Part shown: one piece after another, positions 11,355-40,848 of the stretch | Numbering within the stretch: the first letter of the stretch is position 1 | Layout: each line of letters starts with the position of its first letter | Source: a virus | Strand: one strand, 5' to 3' | Virus record (IMG/VR): IMGVR_UViG_3300031963_000348 | Location: 1-40,848 of that record | DNA length: 40,848 bases | Made by a program: the position numbers and the translations under genes | Notes under the pieces: model-generated | What the model was told of the DNA's origin: nothing | Seen by the model: only the letters and a program-made list of their open reading frames with translations | Database searches by the model: none

Positions 11355-11957
11355 ATGAACATGAAAGTATTAACCCTAAAGGTTAATGAAATTAAGGCTA
11401 ATCCCCAAAACCCCCGTATCATCAAGGACCATAGGTTCAAGCAATTAGTTAAGTCCATTGAGGACTTTCCCGAAATGCTTTCCATACGGGATATAGTAAT
11501 TGATGAGGACAATATGATCCTCGGAGGCAACATGAGATGGAAAGCCTGCATAGAGGCCGGCGTAAAGAGGGTCCAAGTAATGCAAGTTACCGGCCTAACC
11601 CCTGCCCAAAAGAAGGAGTTTATCATCAAAGACAACGCTAACTATGGCGTATGGGATTGGGACCAACTTGCCAACAATTACGACAACGACAAACTTACCG
11701 AGTGGGGCCTTAATGTATGGCAGCCTACCCAATTTTTAGAGGATGACCATGAGGAATCCGGTACAAGCACCGCAGCCCATGATCCGGAAGCCGAACAGGA
11801 AGCCGAGGATGAGAAGGCCGACAAGCGGATTATCCAAATTGAGTTTGATATAGATGATTACGATGAAGCCAACGCCATCTACAAAAAGTTGAGGGGTGAA
11901 GGTCGCGACATTCCTGCCATTTTCATTAATGCCTTAAAAGAAGCCCTATGCGTGTAA
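11355..11957 (+). CDS. ParB-like protein 1
   Basis: 200 residues. The N-terminal ParB/sulfiredoxin-like domain has LTLKVNEIKANPQNPRIIKD, then LVKSIEDFPEML, and ILGGNMRWKACIEAG (about residues 56-70), the GxxR-type nucleotide-binding motif of the family, then FIIKDNANYGVWDWDQLAN. A Glu/Asp-rich linker (about 133-155) leads to a small C-terminal domain ending DIPAIFINALKEAL. No HTH domain of a partition ParB is evident, so plasmid-type segregation is unlikely. The start is preceded by ATCACACACC. It lies just upstream of the hypermodification and terminase genes, and its paralogue overlaps its end. Confidence 0.75.
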   Translation: MNMKVLTLKVNEIKANPQNPRIIKDHRFKQLVKSIEDFPEMLSIRDIVIDEDNMILGGNMRWKACIEAGVKRVQVMQVTGLTPAQKKEFIIKDNANYGVWDWDQLANNYDNDKLTEWGLNVWQPTQFLEDDHEESGTSTAAHDPEAEQEAEDEKADKRIIQIEFDIDDYDEANAIYKKLRGEGRDIPAIFINALKEALCV

Positions 11958-12496
11958 AAGAGTACGAAATTTCCGAGTTCAAGTTAGATGTAGCCAACCC
12001 TCGCATTATTGATACCTACAAATATCAAACCCTCTTAACCTCTATACGGGATTTCCCGGAAATGATGAATGTCCGGCCATTGGTTGTAGATACCGAAATG
12101 AATATCCTGTGCGGTAATATGCGTTACCGGGCTTGCCGGGAGTTAGGGTGGGAGCAAGTGCCTGCCATTATGGTTGATCTGCCCGAGGATAAGCGCAGGG
12201 AGTTAATCATCAAGGACAATATCAGTTATGGCGAATGGGATGATGATGCCATTGAGCAGGATTGGGACACCGACCTATTCAATAAGTGGATCGGTAAGGA
12301 AACATTTGACTATTCAGCCCTTGACTACGCAGACCTGTCCGGCGATATGGATGCTATGAGCAGCGGTGTAAAGAAGGCTATTCAGATTGAGTTCGGGTTA
12401 CGCTACATAGAAGCCAAGGAACTTGAAAAGGAAGCCCGTATACGGGGTATATATATAGGGGGCGTATTTCTTGAAGCATTAAAAAAAATTAAATAA
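11948..12496 (+). CDS. ParB-like protein 2 (tandem paralogue)
   Basis: 182 residues, same architecture as the previous protein: EYEISEFKLDVANPRIID, LLTSIRDFPEMMNVRPLV, ILCGNMRYRACRELG (here Cys replaces the first Gly of GGNMR), RRELIIKDNISYGEWDDD, then a C-terminal domain ending GGVFLEALKKIK. The two are clearly related but diverged, so they may have separate roles or form a heterodimer. The gene overlaps the first by 10 bases. ParB folds can bind CTP or act as nucleases; which applies here cannot be read from sequence. Confidence 0.75.
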   Translation: MRVKEYEISEFKLDVANPRIIDTYKYQTLLTSIRDFPEMMNVRPLVVDTEMNILCGNMRYRACRELGWEQVPAIMVDLPEDKRRELIIKDNISYGEWDDDAIEQDWDTDLFNKWIGKETFDYSALDYADLSGDMDAMSSGVKKAIQIEFGLRYIEAKELEKEARIRGIYIGGVFLEALKKIK

Positions 12497-12725: not shown

Positions 12726-13034
12726 ATGTTTTCATCCGGCAGCAACGCTATAATGATTTTGGGCATAGTTATGGCCCTGCTTTTCATATCCATTGCCATC
12801 TACTACGTTAATAAGCTATTTGCCAACAATACGCAGGAGATACTTGTAAGGTTCATTCTATTGGTGTTTACCTCATTGGTGGCCCTCTACATAGTAGACA
12901 AGGTGATAGCGTGGAGAATTAAACTGATCCCGGATGACCAAAATGCCCAATTATTTGACCTAATCAAGACATTGGTGCTAATGATATTCAGTTATTATTT
13001 TGGAACTAAAAAAGAAAAAAATGAAAATAGTTGA
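12726..13034 (+). CDS. Three-helix membrane protein
   Basis: 102 residues. Hydrophobic segments at about 8-28 (AIMILGIVMALLFISIAIYYV), 39-57 (EILVRFILLVFTSLVALYIV) and 80-93 (DLIKTLVLMIFSYYFG), with a Lys/Glu-rich tail (TKKEKNENS). Size and topology would suit a second holin or a membrane-anchoring factor, yet it sits ahead of the hypermodification genes rather than the lysis genes. No family recognised. It overlaps the next gene by 14 bases. Confidence 0.55.
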   Translation: MFSSGSNAIMILGIVMALLFISIAIYYVNKLFANNTQEILVRFILLVFTSLVALYIVDKVIAWRIKLIPDDQNAQLFDLIKTLVLMIFSYYFGTKKEKNENS

Positions 13035-13800
13035 ACTAAAGCAAGTAGAACACAACGTAAAAGTTGGTGATGTATGCGAATACATTGAGCCGAATATCAC
13101 CGAGGATAGCCTGTTTGTTTCAGATGATGAGGTAATAGGGTTCTTTATCAGGGATATTTCAAAATATTCAGAAAAACTGACCAAGATCATTGCCCTTGCT
13201 AATCATGAATTGCTTTCCGATCGGGTCCCCAAGTCCACGATGAAGCGTAGCAGCGGCCTCCACGACACTCAACACGAGGTACTCCAATACTCCACTATCT
13301 TGGGTTCAGTACCCCCCAAGCCGCATATGAGAAGGCCCTACCCTACAATCAGCAGCGTTCACCAAGTAAAGTCAGCCCAAACCTTTGTTAAGGCGATGAT
13401 GATGGCCTGCTTTGAATCGGAGGAACTAATCAAGACCATAGCCCCCAACATTTACAAGAATCAGATGGAAATATTTGAGAAGGTCCCCAAGCAATGGAAA
13501 TTTGGTCGGATGTTCACGAGCAGTATCTCCAATTTCAATATAGCGGCTCCCTTCCATGTAGACCATGCCAATATCAAAGGATGCGTAAATGTAATTATCT
13601 GCAAGCGGCAGAATAGTAAGGGCGGCGGCACCACAGTCCCCGATTATGGGGCTACAATGGATAGCGTAGATAATTCCATGTTAGTTTACCCGGCGTGGCG
13701 CAATATTCATGGCGTTACCCCCATCATACCCCTTGCACCCGGTGGCTATCGCAATTCCCTTGTATTCTATCCCCTTAAAGCATTCCTGACCAATGAATAG
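13021..13800 (+). CDS. TET/JBP-family 2-oxoglutarate/Fe(II) dioxygenase
   Basis: 259 residues from MKIVELKQVEHNVKVG; the start at 13021 is a normal ATG, whereas the extension to 13000 is poly-Lys. The C-terminal half has the full double-stranded beta-helix signature: iron ligands His179 and Asp181 in APFHVDHANIKG, then GGGTTVPDYG, LVYPAWRNIHGVTPI with distal ligand His230, and Arg244 in GYRNSLVFYPLK to hold 2-oxoglutarate. The pattern HxD...GG..xPDYG...HGxTP...RxSxVFY is that of TET/JBP enzymes, which hydroxylate the 5-methyl group of thymine or 5-methylcytosine in DNA. Its coupled neighbours act on 5-hydroxymethyl-pyrimidines. With no methyltransferase in the genome, thymine is the likelier substrate (inference). 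Confidence 0.8.
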   Translation: MKIVELKQVEHNVKVGDVCEYIEPNITEDSLFVSDDEVIGFFIRDISKYSEKLTKIIALANHELLSDRVPKSTMKRSSGLHDTQHEVLQYSTILGSVPPKPHMRRPYPTISSVHQVKSAQTFVKAMMMACFESEELIKTIAPNIYKNQMEIFEKVPKQWKFGRMFTSSISNFNIAAPFHVDHANIKGCVNVIICKRQNSKGGGTTVPDYGATMDSVDNSMLVYPAWRNIHGVTPIIPLAPGGYRNSLVFYPLKAFLTNE

Positions 13801-14791
13801 CATTTTCCCGGTTCATAGCATTGATCGTTCAATATCCCGGTGGGAAAACTACCTTTGGAATCTCACCCCTGTGGAGCAGATAGGCGGCATATGGTACAAG
13901 CGAGAGGATAAATTTGCCCCATTGGGCTATCACTCCATCAATGGCTCCAAATTGCGCCAATGCCTATGGCTTGTCAATGGGTGGGTAAAGGAGAAGGGAA
14001 TCCGGGGAGTAATATCCGGGTCCGTAGTAGGCAGCCCCCAACACCCTTTTATATCCTCTATCTGCAAGCATTATGATCTTGGATGCCTCATCGTTACCGG
14101 TGCCAAGGACTACATGAAGCACAAGAATATGCAGTTGGCAGAGCAGGCCGGGGCCAAGTTCATTGTAACTAACATAGGCTACGCCAAGGCCCTCCAATCA
14201 AAGTGCTTTCAGTTCAAGGAGAAGATACCGGCACATGAGGTACTTGAAACAAACATAACCCTTGATGATCGCCTCAACCCCCCCGACCGCATAGAAGGAT
14301 TTCATAAGGTCGGTTCAATCCAAGTAAATAATATCCCCGACCACATAGAAACAATAATTATTCCCTGTGGCAGTTGCAATTCCGTTACTTCAATTATGTA
14401 CGGCCTTTTCAATAAGATGCCCAAGTCCCTCAAAAGGGTTATACTTATGGGCATTGGCAACAATGGGAGCAAGAATCTGAACTACATACCCCATCGCCTT
14501 GAATTAATAAGCCGGGTGATAGGCAAGCCGGTCAACAAGGCTTTCAATTACCGCTTTCTTAATACCTCTAACCCCAAAGGTATAGATGTACTGCACTTCA
14601 ATCCCAATGGCGAAGGATATTGTACTTACGAGGATTGGATGCCATACGAAATAGATGGCGTGGAACTGCACCCGAGGTATGAGGGCAAATGCCTCAATTA
14701 CATAAAGTCCTACCCCCACAAGTTTGAGCAATATTGGAACGAAAATACCCTCTTTTGGATCGTAGGTAACGAGCCTAAATACTTATGGTAA
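13793..14791 (+). CDS. PLP-dependent enzyme, fold type II (ACC deaminase/D-cysteine desulfhydrase-like)
   Basis: 332 residues. The N-terminal part has WYKREDKFAPLGYHSINGSKLRQCLWLV with Lys53 as the Schiff-base lysine (NGSKxRQ), then IRGVISGSVVGSPQHPFISSICKHYDLGC. The phosphate-binding loop is IIPCGSCNSVTSIMYG. These are the marks of tryptophan-synthase-beta-fold enzymes near ACC deaminase. The C-terminal third (YCTYEDWMPYEIDGVELHPRYEGKCLNYI) is unusual and probably substrate-specific. Its start overlaps the dioxygenase stop and its end overlaps the transferase. The likely role is to modify an amino acid attached to the hydroxymethyl base, for example by decarboxylation or elimination. The exact reaction is not deducible. 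Confidence 0.75.
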   Translation: MNSIFPVHSIDRSISRWENYLWNLTPVEQIGGIWYKREDKFAPLGYHSINGSKLRQCLWLVNGWVKEKGIRGVISGSVVGSPQHPFISSICKHYDLGCLIVTGAKDYMKHKNMQLAEQAGAKFIVTNIGYAKALQSKCFQFKEKIPAHEVLETNITLDDRLNPPDRIEGFHKVGSIQVNNIPDHIETIIIPCGSCNSVTSIMYGLFNKMPKSLKRVILMGIGNNGSKNLNYIPHRLELISRVIGKPVNKAFNYRFLNTSNPKGIDVLHFNPNGEGYCTYEDWMPYEIDGVELHPRYEGKCLNYIKSYPHKFEQYWNENTLFWIVGNEPKYLW

Positions 14792-15885
14792 AAATCGGCA
14801 GTTATTGTGAATTGAACGGCGTAGAGCCTATTTCCGACCTACAATATGGCATGGACTTTCGCCTGCCTCAACACCGGCGTGAGGTATTCCTGCGCTTTTA
14901 TGCCTTTCATCTCAAATACCGGTCCCATCCCGGCGCGGTATATTACGCTTTCCCCTACCTATTTGCCAAGTTAGGCATGAGCCATGAGCAGCGTTTATGG
15001 TTCGCCTTCATCAATGGCTGCAGTCAGAATGTGATAACTACCTACTTGATATTTGAGCAATTTCCCGATTTGCACAAAATTGATATGACCAAGTTCAGTG
15101 CATGGTTCCGCAAGCATTATGAAAAATTAGGGTGGGACACCGATCGCCGCTATGTAAAGAACACATTTGAACAATGTGTAATGTCTTACCGGGAAAATCT
15201 TGCCGGCCGCACCCAAGAGGAATACTTTGAAGCCCTCACCGATAGCCCTAACCATTACGATAACTTCACAAAACTATGGGATAACATAATAACCAATTTT
15301 TTCAGTTTTGGCCGCCTTGCTACTTTCTCCTATACCGAATACCTCAAAATAGCCGGGCTGCACATTGACTGCAATAGCCTATTCCTTGATGACATAGACG
15401 GCAGCCGGTCCCATCGCAATGGCCTCTGCAAGGTATTGGGCCGCGATGATATGGATTGGTGGAAAGAGCCGGTTAAGTACGATGAGCAGTTCATAGCGTG
15501 GCTGAAGGTGGAAGCCGACAGGCTGATACAAGATGCCGGGAAGAAATACCCTCACCCGGACCTGTCTTTTTTTACCCTTGAATCTACCCTTTGTTGCTAT
15601 AAGTCATGGCACCGGCCTAACCGCAGATACCCCAATGTTTACAATGATATGTTCTACGAAAGGATTGTTTACGCTACCCAAAAATGGCGCGATCCCTGTA
15701 AGTTTGATATATTTTGGCAATGCCGCAAGGAATCCCTGCCCAAGCACCTGCGCATAGAGGATAACCCCAAGGATTACGGCCTTGATCCCCGGAAGCAGAA
15801 TCACTACCTCACTACCGGCGAGGTTATTATGATGGACAAGGAATATGACTGTTTTTCTAACCGCTATAACGACTACATACGATGA
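14785..15885 (+). CDS. Amino acid:DNA transferase-like (alpha-glutamyl/putrescinyl-thymine pyrophosphorylase family)
   Basis: 366 residues. Characteristic segments: VFLRFYAFHLKYRSHPGAVYYAFPYLFAKLG, then QRLWFAFINGCSQNVITTYLIFEQFPDL, DSPNHYDNFTKLWDNIITNFFSFGRLATFSYTEYLKIAG, and a late TLESTLCCYKSWHRPNRRYPNVY. This layout is that of the helical family in thymine-hypermodifying phages that displaces the pyrophosphate or phosphate on activated 5-hydroxymethyl-dU and joins an amino acid or amine. Coupled by overlap to the PLP enzyme upstream and to the kinase downstream. Family assignment rests on remembered motifs and on context. Confidence 0.72.
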   Translation: MVKIGSYCELNGVEPISDLQYGMDFRLPQHRREVFLRFYAFHLKYRSHPGAVYYAFPYLFAKLGMSHEQRLWFAFINGCSQNVITTYLIFEQFPDLHKIDMTKFSAWFRKHYEKLGWDTDRRYVKNTFEQCVMSYRENLAGRTQEEYFEALTDSPNHYDNFTKLWDNIITNFFSFGRLATFSYTEYLKIAGLHIDCNSLFLDDIDGSRSHRNGLCKVLGRDDMDWWKEPVKYDEQFIAWLKVEADRLIQDAGKKYPHPDLSFFTLESTLCCYKSWHRPNRRYPNVYNDMFYERIVYATQKWRDPCKFDIFWQCRKESLPKHLRIEDNPKDYGLDPRKQNHYLTTGEVIMMDKEYDCFSNRYNDYIR

Positions 15886-16367
15886 ATGTACTTTTAATTG
15901 GAGCCTGTGGAGTAGGCAAGACTTGGGTTATGAAACAACTGATAAAGTTAAAGGGAGCCAATTTAACCTACAAAATAGGCATGATATACTACCACTCTAA
16001 TAGTTTGGTTAACATAATAGGGAAATACGATAATTCCACGTTTGAAGGAAGCGACCGCCTCTCCATGGCCGCCGTAAAGGATATAGCCGCTTTTATGGTC
16101 CGCAATTATGATAAAATAAACATATATGAGGGGGACCGGTTCACTAATTCAACATTCATCACCGCAGCCTCACCAATAATCGTAAAAATACAAGGGCATG
16201 GGGATGAGGGCCGCCGGTTAAGGGGCAGCCAACAAACCGACCGACATATCAAAAGCATAGCCACGAGAGTAAGCAATATATCAGCCCATCACGATGTAGA
16301 AAATTCGGATGAGGCCCTTTTTTTAATCCTAAAACTGATTGAAGATGCCGAAAAAAAACAAAGATAA
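15882..16367 (+). CDS. 5-hydroxymethyl-dU DNA kinase-like P-loop kinase
   Basis: 161 residues. Walker A GACGVGKT (7-14), then LGKY-like IIGKYDNSTFEGSDRLSMAAV, a Walker B-like INIYEGDRFTNSTF (80-92), and an Arg/Gln-rich lid, GHGDEGRRLRGSQQTDRHIKSIATRV. The GKYD...GSDRLSM and EGDRF motifs are those of the small kinases that phosphorylate 5-hydroxymethyl-uracil in DNA, activating it for amine or amino-acid addition. This explains its placement beside the transferase and dioxygenase. The separate helical domain found fused in some relatives is absent. The gene overlaps terS by 23 bases. Confidence 0.78.
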   Translation: MNVLLIGACGVGKTWVMKQLIKLKGANLTYKIGMIYYHSNSLVNIIGKYDNSTFEGSDRLSMAAVKDIAAFMVRNYDKINIYEGDRFTNSTFITAASPIIVKIQGHGDEGRRLRGSQQTDRHIKSIATRVSNISAHHDVENSDEALFLILKLIEDAEKKQR

Positions 16368-16746
16368 TAGCCCGGTAGTGCAGTCCCAAGAGAGTGACAA
16401 AAGTGACGAATTAAAAAGGGCGATGATTTTAGCCCTTGAAAGCACGTTAGGGGTAGTAACGGGAGCCTGCAAAAGGGTAGGTATATCAAGGCAGACACAT
16501 TACCGGTGGAGGGAGGAAGATGCCGCCTACCGGGAAGCCGTAGACGAAATATCCGAAATATGTATTGACTTCGTAGAAAGCCAACTGCATAGGCAGATAA
16601 GAGATGGCAATACAGTGGCCACTATCTTCTACCTCAAAACCAAAGCCAAGAAGCGCGGCTATGTAGAGAAGCATGAAATTGAGCATTCCGGTGAAGCCCT
16701 AACCAAAACCATAATCAAATGGGGTGATAAAGAAATTGAGGTATGA
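16345..16746 (+). CDS. terS: Terminase small subunit
   Basis: 133 residues from MPKKNKDNSPVVQSQ. The DNA-binding part has a helix-turn-helix: LESTLGVVTGACKRVGISRQTHYRWREEDAAYREAVDEI (about residues 28-68), typical of small terminases with a homeodomain-like N-terminus. The middle helices (FVESQLHRQIRDGNTVATIFYLKTKAKKRGY) are the oligomerisation core common in these proteins. ATG 16345 is preferred to the TTG two codons upstream. It overlaps the kinase upstream and the large subunit downstream (ATGA). It recognises the packaging site. Confidence 0.85.
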   Translation: MPKKNKDNSPVVQSQESDKSDELKRAMILALESTLGVVTGACKRVGISRQTHYRWREEDAAYREAVDEISEICIDFVESQLHRQIRDGNTVATIFYLKTKAKKRGYVEKHEIEHSGEALTKTIIKWGDKEIEV

Positions 16747-18104
16747 TCGAATTCAGTCCCAAGCAAAATGAGGCTATGGATGCTATCGCCATGGAGAAAT
16801 ATGCGTTTATCCTGTTCGGCGGTGCAATGGGTGGGGGCAAAACTTTTTGGGGCCTGTCAGCCCTGCTAATCATGTGCCAAGCCTTTCCCCGTAGTAGATG
16901 GTGCGTGATACGTGAGGACCTTGAAAAGATTAGGATTACCACAATACCCTCATTCACCAAGCTAAACCCATCCGGCACCCTGCGTACTTCACCTTACGAA
17001 TATCGGCACCCCAATGGATCGGTAATTATGTTCAAGGGCGAAAACTACGACAAAGACAAGGAGTTGCAATGGCTCAAAGGATTGGAGGTAAACGGCTTTC
17101 TATTTGAGGAAATAAACGAGTGCCAAGAGGCTACCCTCAATATTGCATTCGGTAGGGCCGGCCGGTGGGAATGTGAACCAAGGCCCAAGCCCGTTATACT
17201 TGCCACTTGCAACCCGGCTGATAATTGGATTAAGCGCAGAGTATATGACCAATGGGAAAAGGGGTCCCTACCGGATAATTGGCTTTACATACCTTCCAAG
17301 ATTACCGATAACCCAAACCTAACCGAGGAATACAAGGAAAACCTCAAAAATATGCCGCGTTACCAATACGAGGTATTCGTAGAGGGTAATTGGAATCTCC
17401 AACTGAAAACCGGTGGCGAGTTTTACAAGTGCTTTGAACTTGATAAGCATATAGGCAAATGCAAATATGATCCGGAGTTAGCCCTCCATATTTCGTGGGA
17501 TGATAACGTAAACCCCTACTTACCTATGGGTATATTCCAAGTCCGGGATAAAGAGGTATTTATGATTGATGAGATAACCGGCGAAAACCCCAATAACACA
17601 ATCAAGGCCGTATGCAATGAGTTCAAGCGGCGTTACCCGGCGCATCAATCCGGCCTGTTCATTTATGGGGATGCTACCGCTAACAAGGAAGATACCAAGT
17701 TAGAGAAGGGCTATAACTTTTACCGCCTCATCATGGAGGAATTGAGGGACTACAAACCAACGAGCCGGGTGATGAGCCATAACCCTTCCGTAGTAATGAG
17801 GGGTAATTGGATTAACACGATCTTTGAGAAAGAATTAGAGGGCATAAAGGTCCTTATTGACGAGAGCAACAAAATAACCATTAAAGATTTTGTTAATCTG
17901 AAGGAGGCCGCCGATGGCACCAAGTCCAAAGAAATGGAAACGGAAAGCAAGACCGGTGTACGCTATCAAAAGTACGGCCACTTTACTGATCTTTTTGACT
18001 ATTTTATGTGTACTGCCTTCATGGAATATTTCATCCGCTATCAAAAGGGCGGCATATCTATGCCCATCAGAATGGGCCGGCCCGGTACAAAAAACGCTTA
18101 TTAG
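16743..18104 (+). CDS. terL: Terminase large subunit
   Basis: 453 residues. The ATPase domain has Walker A GGAMGGGKT (26-34), the Walker B-like GFLFEEINE, and the coupling motif ILATCNPADNWIKRRVYDQW. The nuclease domain carries ALHISWDDN, GLFIYGDATANKEDTK and HFTDLFDYFMCTAF with the expected acidic residues. It is full length. It cuts and pumps DNA into the prohead using the portal at 20213. If the upstream cassette modifies DNA, this enzyme must tolerate or exploit the modified bases (inference). Confidence 0.95.
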   Translation: MIEFSPKQNEAMDAIAMEKYAFILFGGAMGGGKTFWGLSALLIMCQAFPRSRWCVIREDLEKIRITTIPSFTKLNPSGTLRTSPYEYRHPNGSVIMFKGENYDKDKELQWLKGLEVNGFLFEEINECQEATLNIAFGRAGRWECEPRPKPVILATCNPADNWIKRRVYDQWEKGSLPDNWLYIPSKITDNPNLTEEYKENLKNMPRYQYEVFVEGNWNLQLKTGGEFYKCFELDKHIGKCKYDPELALHISWDDNVNPYLPMGIFQVRDKEVFMIDEITGENPNNTIKAVCNEFKRRYPAHQSGLFIYGDATANKEDTKLEKGYNFYRLIMEELRDYKPTSRVMSHNPSVVMRGNWINTIFEKELEGIKVLIDESNKITIKDFVNLKEAADGTKSKEMETESKTGVRYQKYGHFTDLFDYFMCTAFMEYFIRYQKGGISMPIRMGRPGTKNAY

Positions 18105-40700: not shown

Positions 40701-40848
40701 TACTCAAAGATGGTGGGTTAAAGGCAGCACAGGAACATTGGCAAATCTATCAAGTCCTAATGCATCAGCGGCCCTTCAAGTTGATGCTACAACACAAGGG
40801 TTTTTGCCGCCACGTATGACCGGAGCCCAAGCCGAGGCAATATCAAGT
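37744..40848 (+). CDS. Modular tail fibre protein (3' part continues at 133-237)
   Basis: Open to the last base: 1035 codons here and 34 more through the circular junction, 1069 in total. A signal-like hydrophobic N-terminus (MRHLFIFLFVLIGFESIAQQ) precedes a baseplate-proximal domain (GEVSAVRNNTGSAITKGSVVYITG...GEVKI-like, about 85-220). Modules follow: two NIYxxDGTLTGNRxL units (about 257 and 680), two LLDVNG/KLDVQG units (about 433 and 791), and two GFLPxRMT units (about 540 and 1020). GC content drops visibly at 38580-38990 and 39800-40700, suggesting swapped receptor-binding parts. The N-terminus looks exported, which is odd for a fibre. Start overlaps the preceding stop. Confidence 0.85.
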   Translation, partial: MRHLFIFLFVLIGFESIAQQPTNYTRVAGRYKWTSGYFDSTMHIPSGPTPKLGGGYTGPGALFFNTTDSSVYTWTGTQWTLLRGSIEGEVSAVRNNTGSAITKGSVVYITGSTGTVPTIAKASAKAESTSSVTFGVLAQDLAAGETGYAVLSGRLYGLNTNAYTEGDPVYLDTIAGQFTHTKYQAPLHFVLVGYIVKKSGGNGSLEVKIQNYPELDELHNVRITDPVRNQSILLYDSTNKLWVDTALSAVAPSTNIYNADGTLTGNRTLTSGGYSLTILGGIEEVVGFPSEQISLRLQGSTTTKNPYLSLKNTNASGKDYTLRSMTDGSFDIFNLSNLTSIFKHDWTNNINYFKSASGLTDTNNFYLGFNIVSGLWLTSSKAIGNYAICQSGGSTFVNAPTSGSIGFRINNADKMTLTSAGRLLLGTTTEATYLLDVNGTLRTTDEITLSKASGTALMNVIGGSGVESQVRIGSQTANTRFSLTANGGDFYIGSQPDVGTSTKIFTISRANTNVAIVNNTTTATYANKYSLLELVGTGKGFLPNRMTQSQLRGIAGAVNAVSIVSGGSGYTNGTYNNKTAIVTTAYGTGTVQVSATVVGGVVTTLTIGPIPPYGSGFQIGDIITSIVDLSGGAGFQGKISGVTTPTSLIAYQTDATEGAYIHTSNNGWQRILTTSDSSGNIYTTDGTLTGNRILDASTYTLNFNANASQGIVFHKQRINTLDYYYGFSGKDVPLTSTGNATNYNVAASFNGNVLYLNAGLALAFSMSGTEIMRLTNNNNFIVGNGSSFSDAGYKLDVQGTGRFTGNVRVDNGIRISREGVVTNGYTMIIGDQPALAGATPYYNTLIGNTPYGLSSNKTRNAILGSTWQSTGDGAVGVGNNVYLGGDGAIAFGNGTTALANEFVAGNPNYAITNVYFGNGKIGGDFNTYSSRDGVSYAINGSGGNGTDRIGGNITIAGGKGTGAGTPGDIIFSTATPTTTGTTLQSLTQRWWVKGSTGTLANLSSPNASAALQVDATTQGFLPPRMTGAQAEAISS
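40723..40848 (+). repeat. Right copy of 126-bp terminal direct repeat
   Basis: Identical to 7-132, in the same frame of the fibre gene. See the left copy. The right boundary is set by the end of the window, so the true repeat or overlap may be longer. Confidence 0.9.

Follow-up and report, generated by a model that had tools for sequence, protein, structure and literature searches.

A predicted thymine hypermodification operon with a TET/JBP-type first enzyme ahead of the terminase genes of a 41-kb phage

Four overlapping genes in a viral genome probably constitute an operon for the post-replicative hypermodification of thymine, similar to the pathway of phage ViI but opening with a TET/JBP-type step. 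The assignment is supported by family membership, intact motifs, conserved gene order, the alternation of TET with thymidylate synthase (TS)-type genes, and the homology of the predicted third and fourth steps to proteins of phage Vi01. The window analyzed here, 40,848 bases long, covers an entire IMG/VR virus record and represents a phage known solely from a metagenomic contig. About 126 bases are common to its two ends (7–132 and 40723–40848), from which the record is judged to be probably nearly complete; the same repeat suggests a possibly circular assembly.

Architecture of the locus and the four enzymes

The cassette spans positions 13021, the ATG of the TET gene, to 16367, the stop of the kinase gene, and comprises four ORFs on the plus strand: a TET/JBP-type Fe(II)/2-oxoglutarate dioxygenase, a fold-type-II PLP enzyme, an amino acid:DNA transferase (ADDT), and a P-loop kinase. 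Neighboring ORFs overlap at 13793/13800 (TET/PLP), 14785/14791 (PLP/ADDT), and 15882/15885 (ADDT/kinase). The terminase small subunit gene, terS (16345..16746, plus strand; phrog_309 at 3.7e-12, phrog_4044 at 2.9e-9), has its ATG inside the kinase gene and is in turn overlapped by the start of the large subunit gene, terL (16743..18104, plus strand; PF04466 at 1.8e-9, phrog_979 at 1.4e-24). The gene order and boundaries given in the first-pass annotation, four overlapping genes followed by terS and terL, are correct.

Upstream of the TET gene are a small membrane-like ORF, which overlaps it, and two accessory genes for ParB-N domain proteins, also on the plus strand. The first (11355..11957; PF02195 at 6.3e-5, phrog_620 at 8e-27) occupies the same position in the order 5′ of TET in many contigs, and the second (11948..12496) matches PF02195 at 1.6e-7, above the cut-off, with the ParB1-ParB2-TET order kept. 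Most complete contigs of the window type have two tandem ParB-N paralogues, at 11355–12496 in the window, ahead of the cassette. Scans of the window for promoters and terminators gave results below chance, and Rfam and tRNA searches of it gave no matches. A search for a bacterial host via prophages returned a single match, to one short Actinomycetes MAG contig.

ADDT relatives are encoded by 60 IMG/VR loci, in many of which the order ParB1-ParB2-TET-PLP-ADDT-kinase-TerS is kept. TET, PLP, and ADDT genes occur together in 20 viral contigs, corresponding to 15 ADDT clusters at 90% identity, and all four cassette genes are adjacent in a 168-kb contig (L025). As judged from the conservation of each ORF, and of their order, in many IMG/VR contigs, the four are not chance ORFs. 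The catalytic motifs of all four proteins are intact and conserved, and signs of decay are absent.

The TET/JBP-type protein (13021..13800, 259 residues) matches PF12851 (Tet_JBP) at 3.5e-7 with a score of 30.1 bits, under the curated cut-off of 34.9, and matches phrog_6059 at 1.1e-54. Its relatives in IMG/VR contigs are 54–74% identical, and 13 of 13 match PF12851, the best at 4.6e-14. The HxD...H iron triad and the 2-oxoglutarate-binding arginine are present, with H179-x-D181, H230, and R244 invariant across 13 sequences, and the best PDB match of the TET profile is human TET2 (E 0.0013). Several database names differ from this assignment: phrog_6059 and the TET of cyanophage MED4-184 (L062:6980-7765) are annotated as "queuine tRNA-ribosyltransferase," and the TET of Caulobacter phage Cr30 (L073:4879-6207) is labeled "putative SNF2 DNA repair protein," whereas Pfam and the profile built here place them in TET/JBP. 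In MED4-184 (L062:5641-8088), ParB and TET genes, with CPAG_00034 between them, precede the terminase without an ADDT.

The PLP enzyme (13793..14791, 332 residues), predicted to act in tailoring, matches PF00291 (PALP) at 2.5e-4, under Pfam's curated cut-off; 13 of its 17 relatives, which are 35–69% identical in IMG/VR contigs, match the same family. The Schiff-base lysine, K53 of an NGSK motif, and the GS phosphate-cup residues are invariant among the relatives. The predicted structure (pLDDT 93.4) was matched by Foldseek to the D-cysteine desulfhydrase/ACC deaminase fold (E 1.6e-10), with SbnA and OASS also among the fold matches. Vi01_182, a PF00291 protein of phage Vi01, is 41% identical to the window enzyme, and some 345 phage records contain homologues at 34–39% identity; most of these phages are Ackermannviridae, which also carry an ADDT. 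Vi01_182 would be the ViI decarboxylase, given the ViI pathway and the four PLP families looked for in Vi01, three of which, those other than PF00291, gave no match. Fold-type-II PLP enzymes are seldom decarboxylases. Two near relatives of the cassette have 3′ flanks that are 99% identical and differ in the PLP gene: L017 has it, and L016 lacks it between TET and ADDT. In the PLP-less version, the breakpoint coincides with the stop codon of TET (L016:7861-7968 compared with L017:1666-2661); an assembly chimera is possible there.

The ADDT, or aGPT-PPlase-like protein (14785..15885, 366 residues), matches phrog_3271 at 3e-77. A Pfam search with the window protein alone matched no model, PF18724 ("Amino acid:DNA transferase") included; among 24 relatives, 16 match PF18724, the best at 5.8e-26. 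Identity to the window ADDT is 48–68% across 23 relatives, and mycobacteriophage Zemanar gp3, 40% identical, also matches PF18724. PDB sequence searches with the single cassette proteins and with the ADDT profile found no relative; the ADDT was placed by fold search alone. The model (pLDDT 91.7) has as its first PDB fold match 8z2m, the 5-phosphomethyl-dU glycinyltransferase (PUGT) of phage PaMx11 (probability 1.00, E 0.011, TM 0.65 on the target); HhH DNA glycosylases come next in the ranking. The TET/JBP, fold-type-II PLP, and ADDT assignments of the first-pass annotation are thus upheld at the family level by profile searches of relatives, and the predicted structures of the latter two agree, matching PLP fold type II and 8z2m, respectively.

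The P-loop kinase (15882..16367, 161 residues), predicted to act on the 5-hydroxymethyl group in DNA, contains a GACGVGKT P-loop and an EGDR motif. Its relatives in IMG/VR contigs are 25–57% identical, and PF18751 (P-loop nucleotide kinase 3) is matched by 19 of 23 of them, the best at 1.4e-13; the window kinase by itself gave no PF18751 match in the Pfam search. An hhalign comparison with actinophage kinases gave a probability of 99.4% (E 6.8e-22), and a PDB search with the kinase profile returned general P-loop proteins only. The earlier placement among the 5-hydroxymethyl-dU (5-hmdU) DNA kinases does not hold: the relatives fall in PF18751, and the HMUDK and HMUD2 families (PF18748/PF18747) are matched by Vi01 proteins. 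ADDT and kinase form a single ORF in four loci (L030, L041, L043, and L056). The name "terminase small subunit" is attached to several phage DNA kinases, including Zemanar gp4 (L064:2875-3465; PF18751 at 3e-71) and Vi01_061c (L069:38203-38865; PF18748 5-hmdU kinase match at 3e-116), and to phrog_800, which matches the window kinase.

Source of the hydroxyl group

A TET/JBP enzyme as the hydroxyl source had been called unusual. It is the commonest source beside this ADDT clade: among 34 ADDT clusters, 26 have TET only, three have a TS-type gene only, five have neither, and none has both. The alternation gives a Fisher p of 0.009, although the clusters are non-independent and many contigs are fragments, so that absences are weak. 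In addition, the combination of ParB, TET/JBP, pyrophosphorylase, and kinase ahead of the terminase has been published for actinophages. Eight Ackermannviridae have TS and lack TET. Phage Cr30 carries both TET and a thymidylate synthase, the latter a canonical full-length enzyme scoring 373 bits versus 27–86 in the others; a literature search for DNA modification in Cr30 found no report.

The 40.8-kb window record contains no PF00303 (thymidylate synthase) match that could represent a ViI-type dUMP hydroxymethylase, and no PF00145 (cytosine-5 methyltransferase) match. Among the window proteins scanned, no DNA polymerase was recognized and a DnaC-like loader was found, which suggests that replication probably uses the host polymerase and nucleotides and that the change would have to occur on DNA. 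The simplest reading is that TET stands in for the TS-type hydroxymethylase as the supplier of 5-hmdU, acting on DNA.

Proposed pathway and competing readings

In the proposed pathway, the TET/JBP enzyme would act like JBP on thymine residues within DNA, oxidizing their methyl groups to yield 5-hydroxymethyl-dU, and the PF18751-type kinase would phosphorylate the resulting hydroxyl. The ADDT would then exchange the phosphate for a free amino acid, for which serine is the best guess. Finally, the PLP enzyme would tailor the amino acid attached to DNA, with decarboxylation as the most likely reaction, to give a base resembling 5-(2-aminoethoxy)methyl-dU, and the modified DNA would be packaged and resist restriction enzymes. 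The core of the line of oxidation, activation, ligation, and tailoring beside terS and terL that had been put forward from the first reading is retained; its kinase family and the rarity of its TET source are not, and of the pyrimidines from which its substituted base could derive, thymine is favored.

Several observations bear on individual steps. The ADDT-kinase fusions suggest that the second and third steps are coupled. The fold match to 8z2m favors the ADDT step, since the substrate of that enzyme is the product expected from the first two. The pair of near relatives with and without the PLP gene is as expected if the PLP enzyme performs the final step. The least certain step is the serine-derived product, which is suggested by the homology of the PLP and ADDT proteins to those of Vi01, by the ViI base, and by the pathway attributed to Lee 2021, in which the ViI base reportedly derives from serine through a PLP-dependent decarboxylase.

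The readings that compete with this pathway concern the base, the order of the steps, and the purpose of the cassette. Phage TETs studied biochemically reportedly act on 5-methylcytosine (Burke 2021), and this activity, together with the family name, would fit a cytosine version of the pathway, in which TET would oxidize host- or phage-derived 5-methylcytosine and the 5hmC formed would be phosphorylated and receive an amino acid. A host methyltransferase could provide the 5-methylcytosine, and in one locus (L019:1163-5475) a TET-ADDT-kinase set is followed by a PF00145 C5-cytosine methyltransferase, a possible cytosine branch. That locus is, however, the only one of 48 related records with such a gene; the other 47 and the window lack it, and a C5-methyltransferase partner was rejected. 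Moreover, the ADDT and PLP relatives sit in thymine pathways (Vi01, PaMx11), and the alternation of TET with a TS-type gene is consistent with a 5-hmdU source. Cytosine is accordingly an improbable target, and thymine is the likelier base on grounds of homology, TS-type alternation, and the near absence of C5-methyltransferases. Somewhat less improbable, though still unlikely, is that the PLP enzyme works in solution rather than on DNA, supplying the ADDT with a D-amino acid or a non-proteinogenic one to attach. Its nearest folds (D-cysteine desulfhydrase, ACC deaminase, SbnA, and OASS) all use free amino acids, and the position of its gene between TET and ADDT is compatible with either order of action. 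The homologous protein of ViI-like phages, in contrast, reportedly acts after attachment (Lee 2021), and the clean absence of the PLP gene from L016 suits a late step at least as well.

The genes around the cassette raise the question of its purpose. ParB precedes TET in most complete window-type contigs and in each of the five TET-bearing phages sampled (Zemanar, Tonitrus, LittleMunchkin, Margaery, and MED4-184), and the operon continues into terS and terL. A ParB-guided modification limited to certain sites, which would mark the DNA for packaging or regulation instead of protecting it in bulk, would account for these neighbors; yet the sequence holds no sign of site choice, and two relatives with larger genomes, L022 and L025, have the cassette with no ParB matches in the stretch examined, so this reading is given about as little weight as a cytosine target. 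Far less probable is a defense or scavenging system separate from virion DNA, or a decayed remnant. Domains of the aGPT-PPlase type are also predicted in bacterial defense systems (PMC13092281), but the genes considered here occur in phage genomes 5′ of the terminase, and the four intact, conserved catalytic motifs without decay argue against either possibility.

The preferred pathway, post-replicative modification of thymine, can be extended more tentatively, at somewhat less than even confidence: a ViI-type route to aminoethoxymethyl-dU or a related base may be fed by a thymine-oxidizing phage JBP, TET and a TS-type hydroxymethylase may be interchangeable as the opening module, and small phages lacking a DNA polymerase or nucleotide-pool enzymes of their own may thereby hypermodify thymine after replication. 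If true, this would tie TET/JBP enzymes to the hypermodification of thymine with amino acids and account for hypermodified DNA in a 41-kb phage apparently dependent on host replication. It would also predict a phage enzyme that oxidizes thymine, of which a literature search found no report. The compact four-gene set would lend itself to a one-tube test in vitro, and the predicted base could alter restriction, sequencing, and Cas9 sensitivity.

Relation to known systems

The base in ViI DNA is 5-(2-aminoethoxy)methyl-dU (PMC6449724). Similar to the window, the ViI/Ackermannviridae 5-NeOmdU system has ADDT and fold-type-II PLP homologues and activation by a DNA kinase; the Vi01 set comprises a TS-type gene, two 5-hmdU kinases (PF18747/PF18748), Vi01_199 (PF18724 at 3e-58), and Vi01_182. 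The main differences are the first step, which is assigned to a TS-type enzyme (PF00303) in Vi01 and to TET/JBP in the window, the kinases, which belong to PF18747/PF18748 in Vi01 versus PF18751 in the window, and the placement of the genes, which are scattered over the Vi01 genome and adjacent in the window. The PUGT of PaMx11/M6, which the window ADDT matches best in fold, has no detectable sequence similarity to it. In PaMx11/M6, the 5-hmdU reportedly originates in the nucleotide pool, with other tailoring enzymes acting afterwards.

The arrangement closest in neighborhood is found in actinophages. In Gordonia phage CaiB (PMC9302106) and Rhodococcus phage Tonitrus (PMC11955845), genes for ParB, TET/JBP, pyrophosphorylase/ADDT, and kinase lie ahead of the terminase, and restriction evasion has been proposed, with citation of Iyer 2013 or Lee 2018/2021. 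The block in these phages and in Mycobacterium phage Zemanar shares with the window the TET, ADDT, and PF18751 kinase families, with ParB 5′ and the terminase 3′, and its ADDT is about 17–38% identical to that of the window. Unlike the window, it lacks a PLP gene. Tonitrus (L061:3761-4642) and LittleMunchkin (L067:3045-3926) encode an extra protein of about 293 residues 3′ of the kinase, possibly their tailoring enzyme; only the Tonitrus protein matches ApbA, and weakly (E 0.013).

Glutamicibacter phage Montesquieu has consecutive ADDT, PLP, and kinase genes, as in the window, with a PLP homologue that is 27% identical to the window enzyme, and carries a TS/pyrimidine hydroxymethylase where the window has TET. 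A literature search found no description of TET joined with a ViI-type PLP enzyme. By family assignment, the cassette is a known front end of TET, PF18751 kinase, and ADDT combined with the predicted tailoring enzyme of the ViI pathway.
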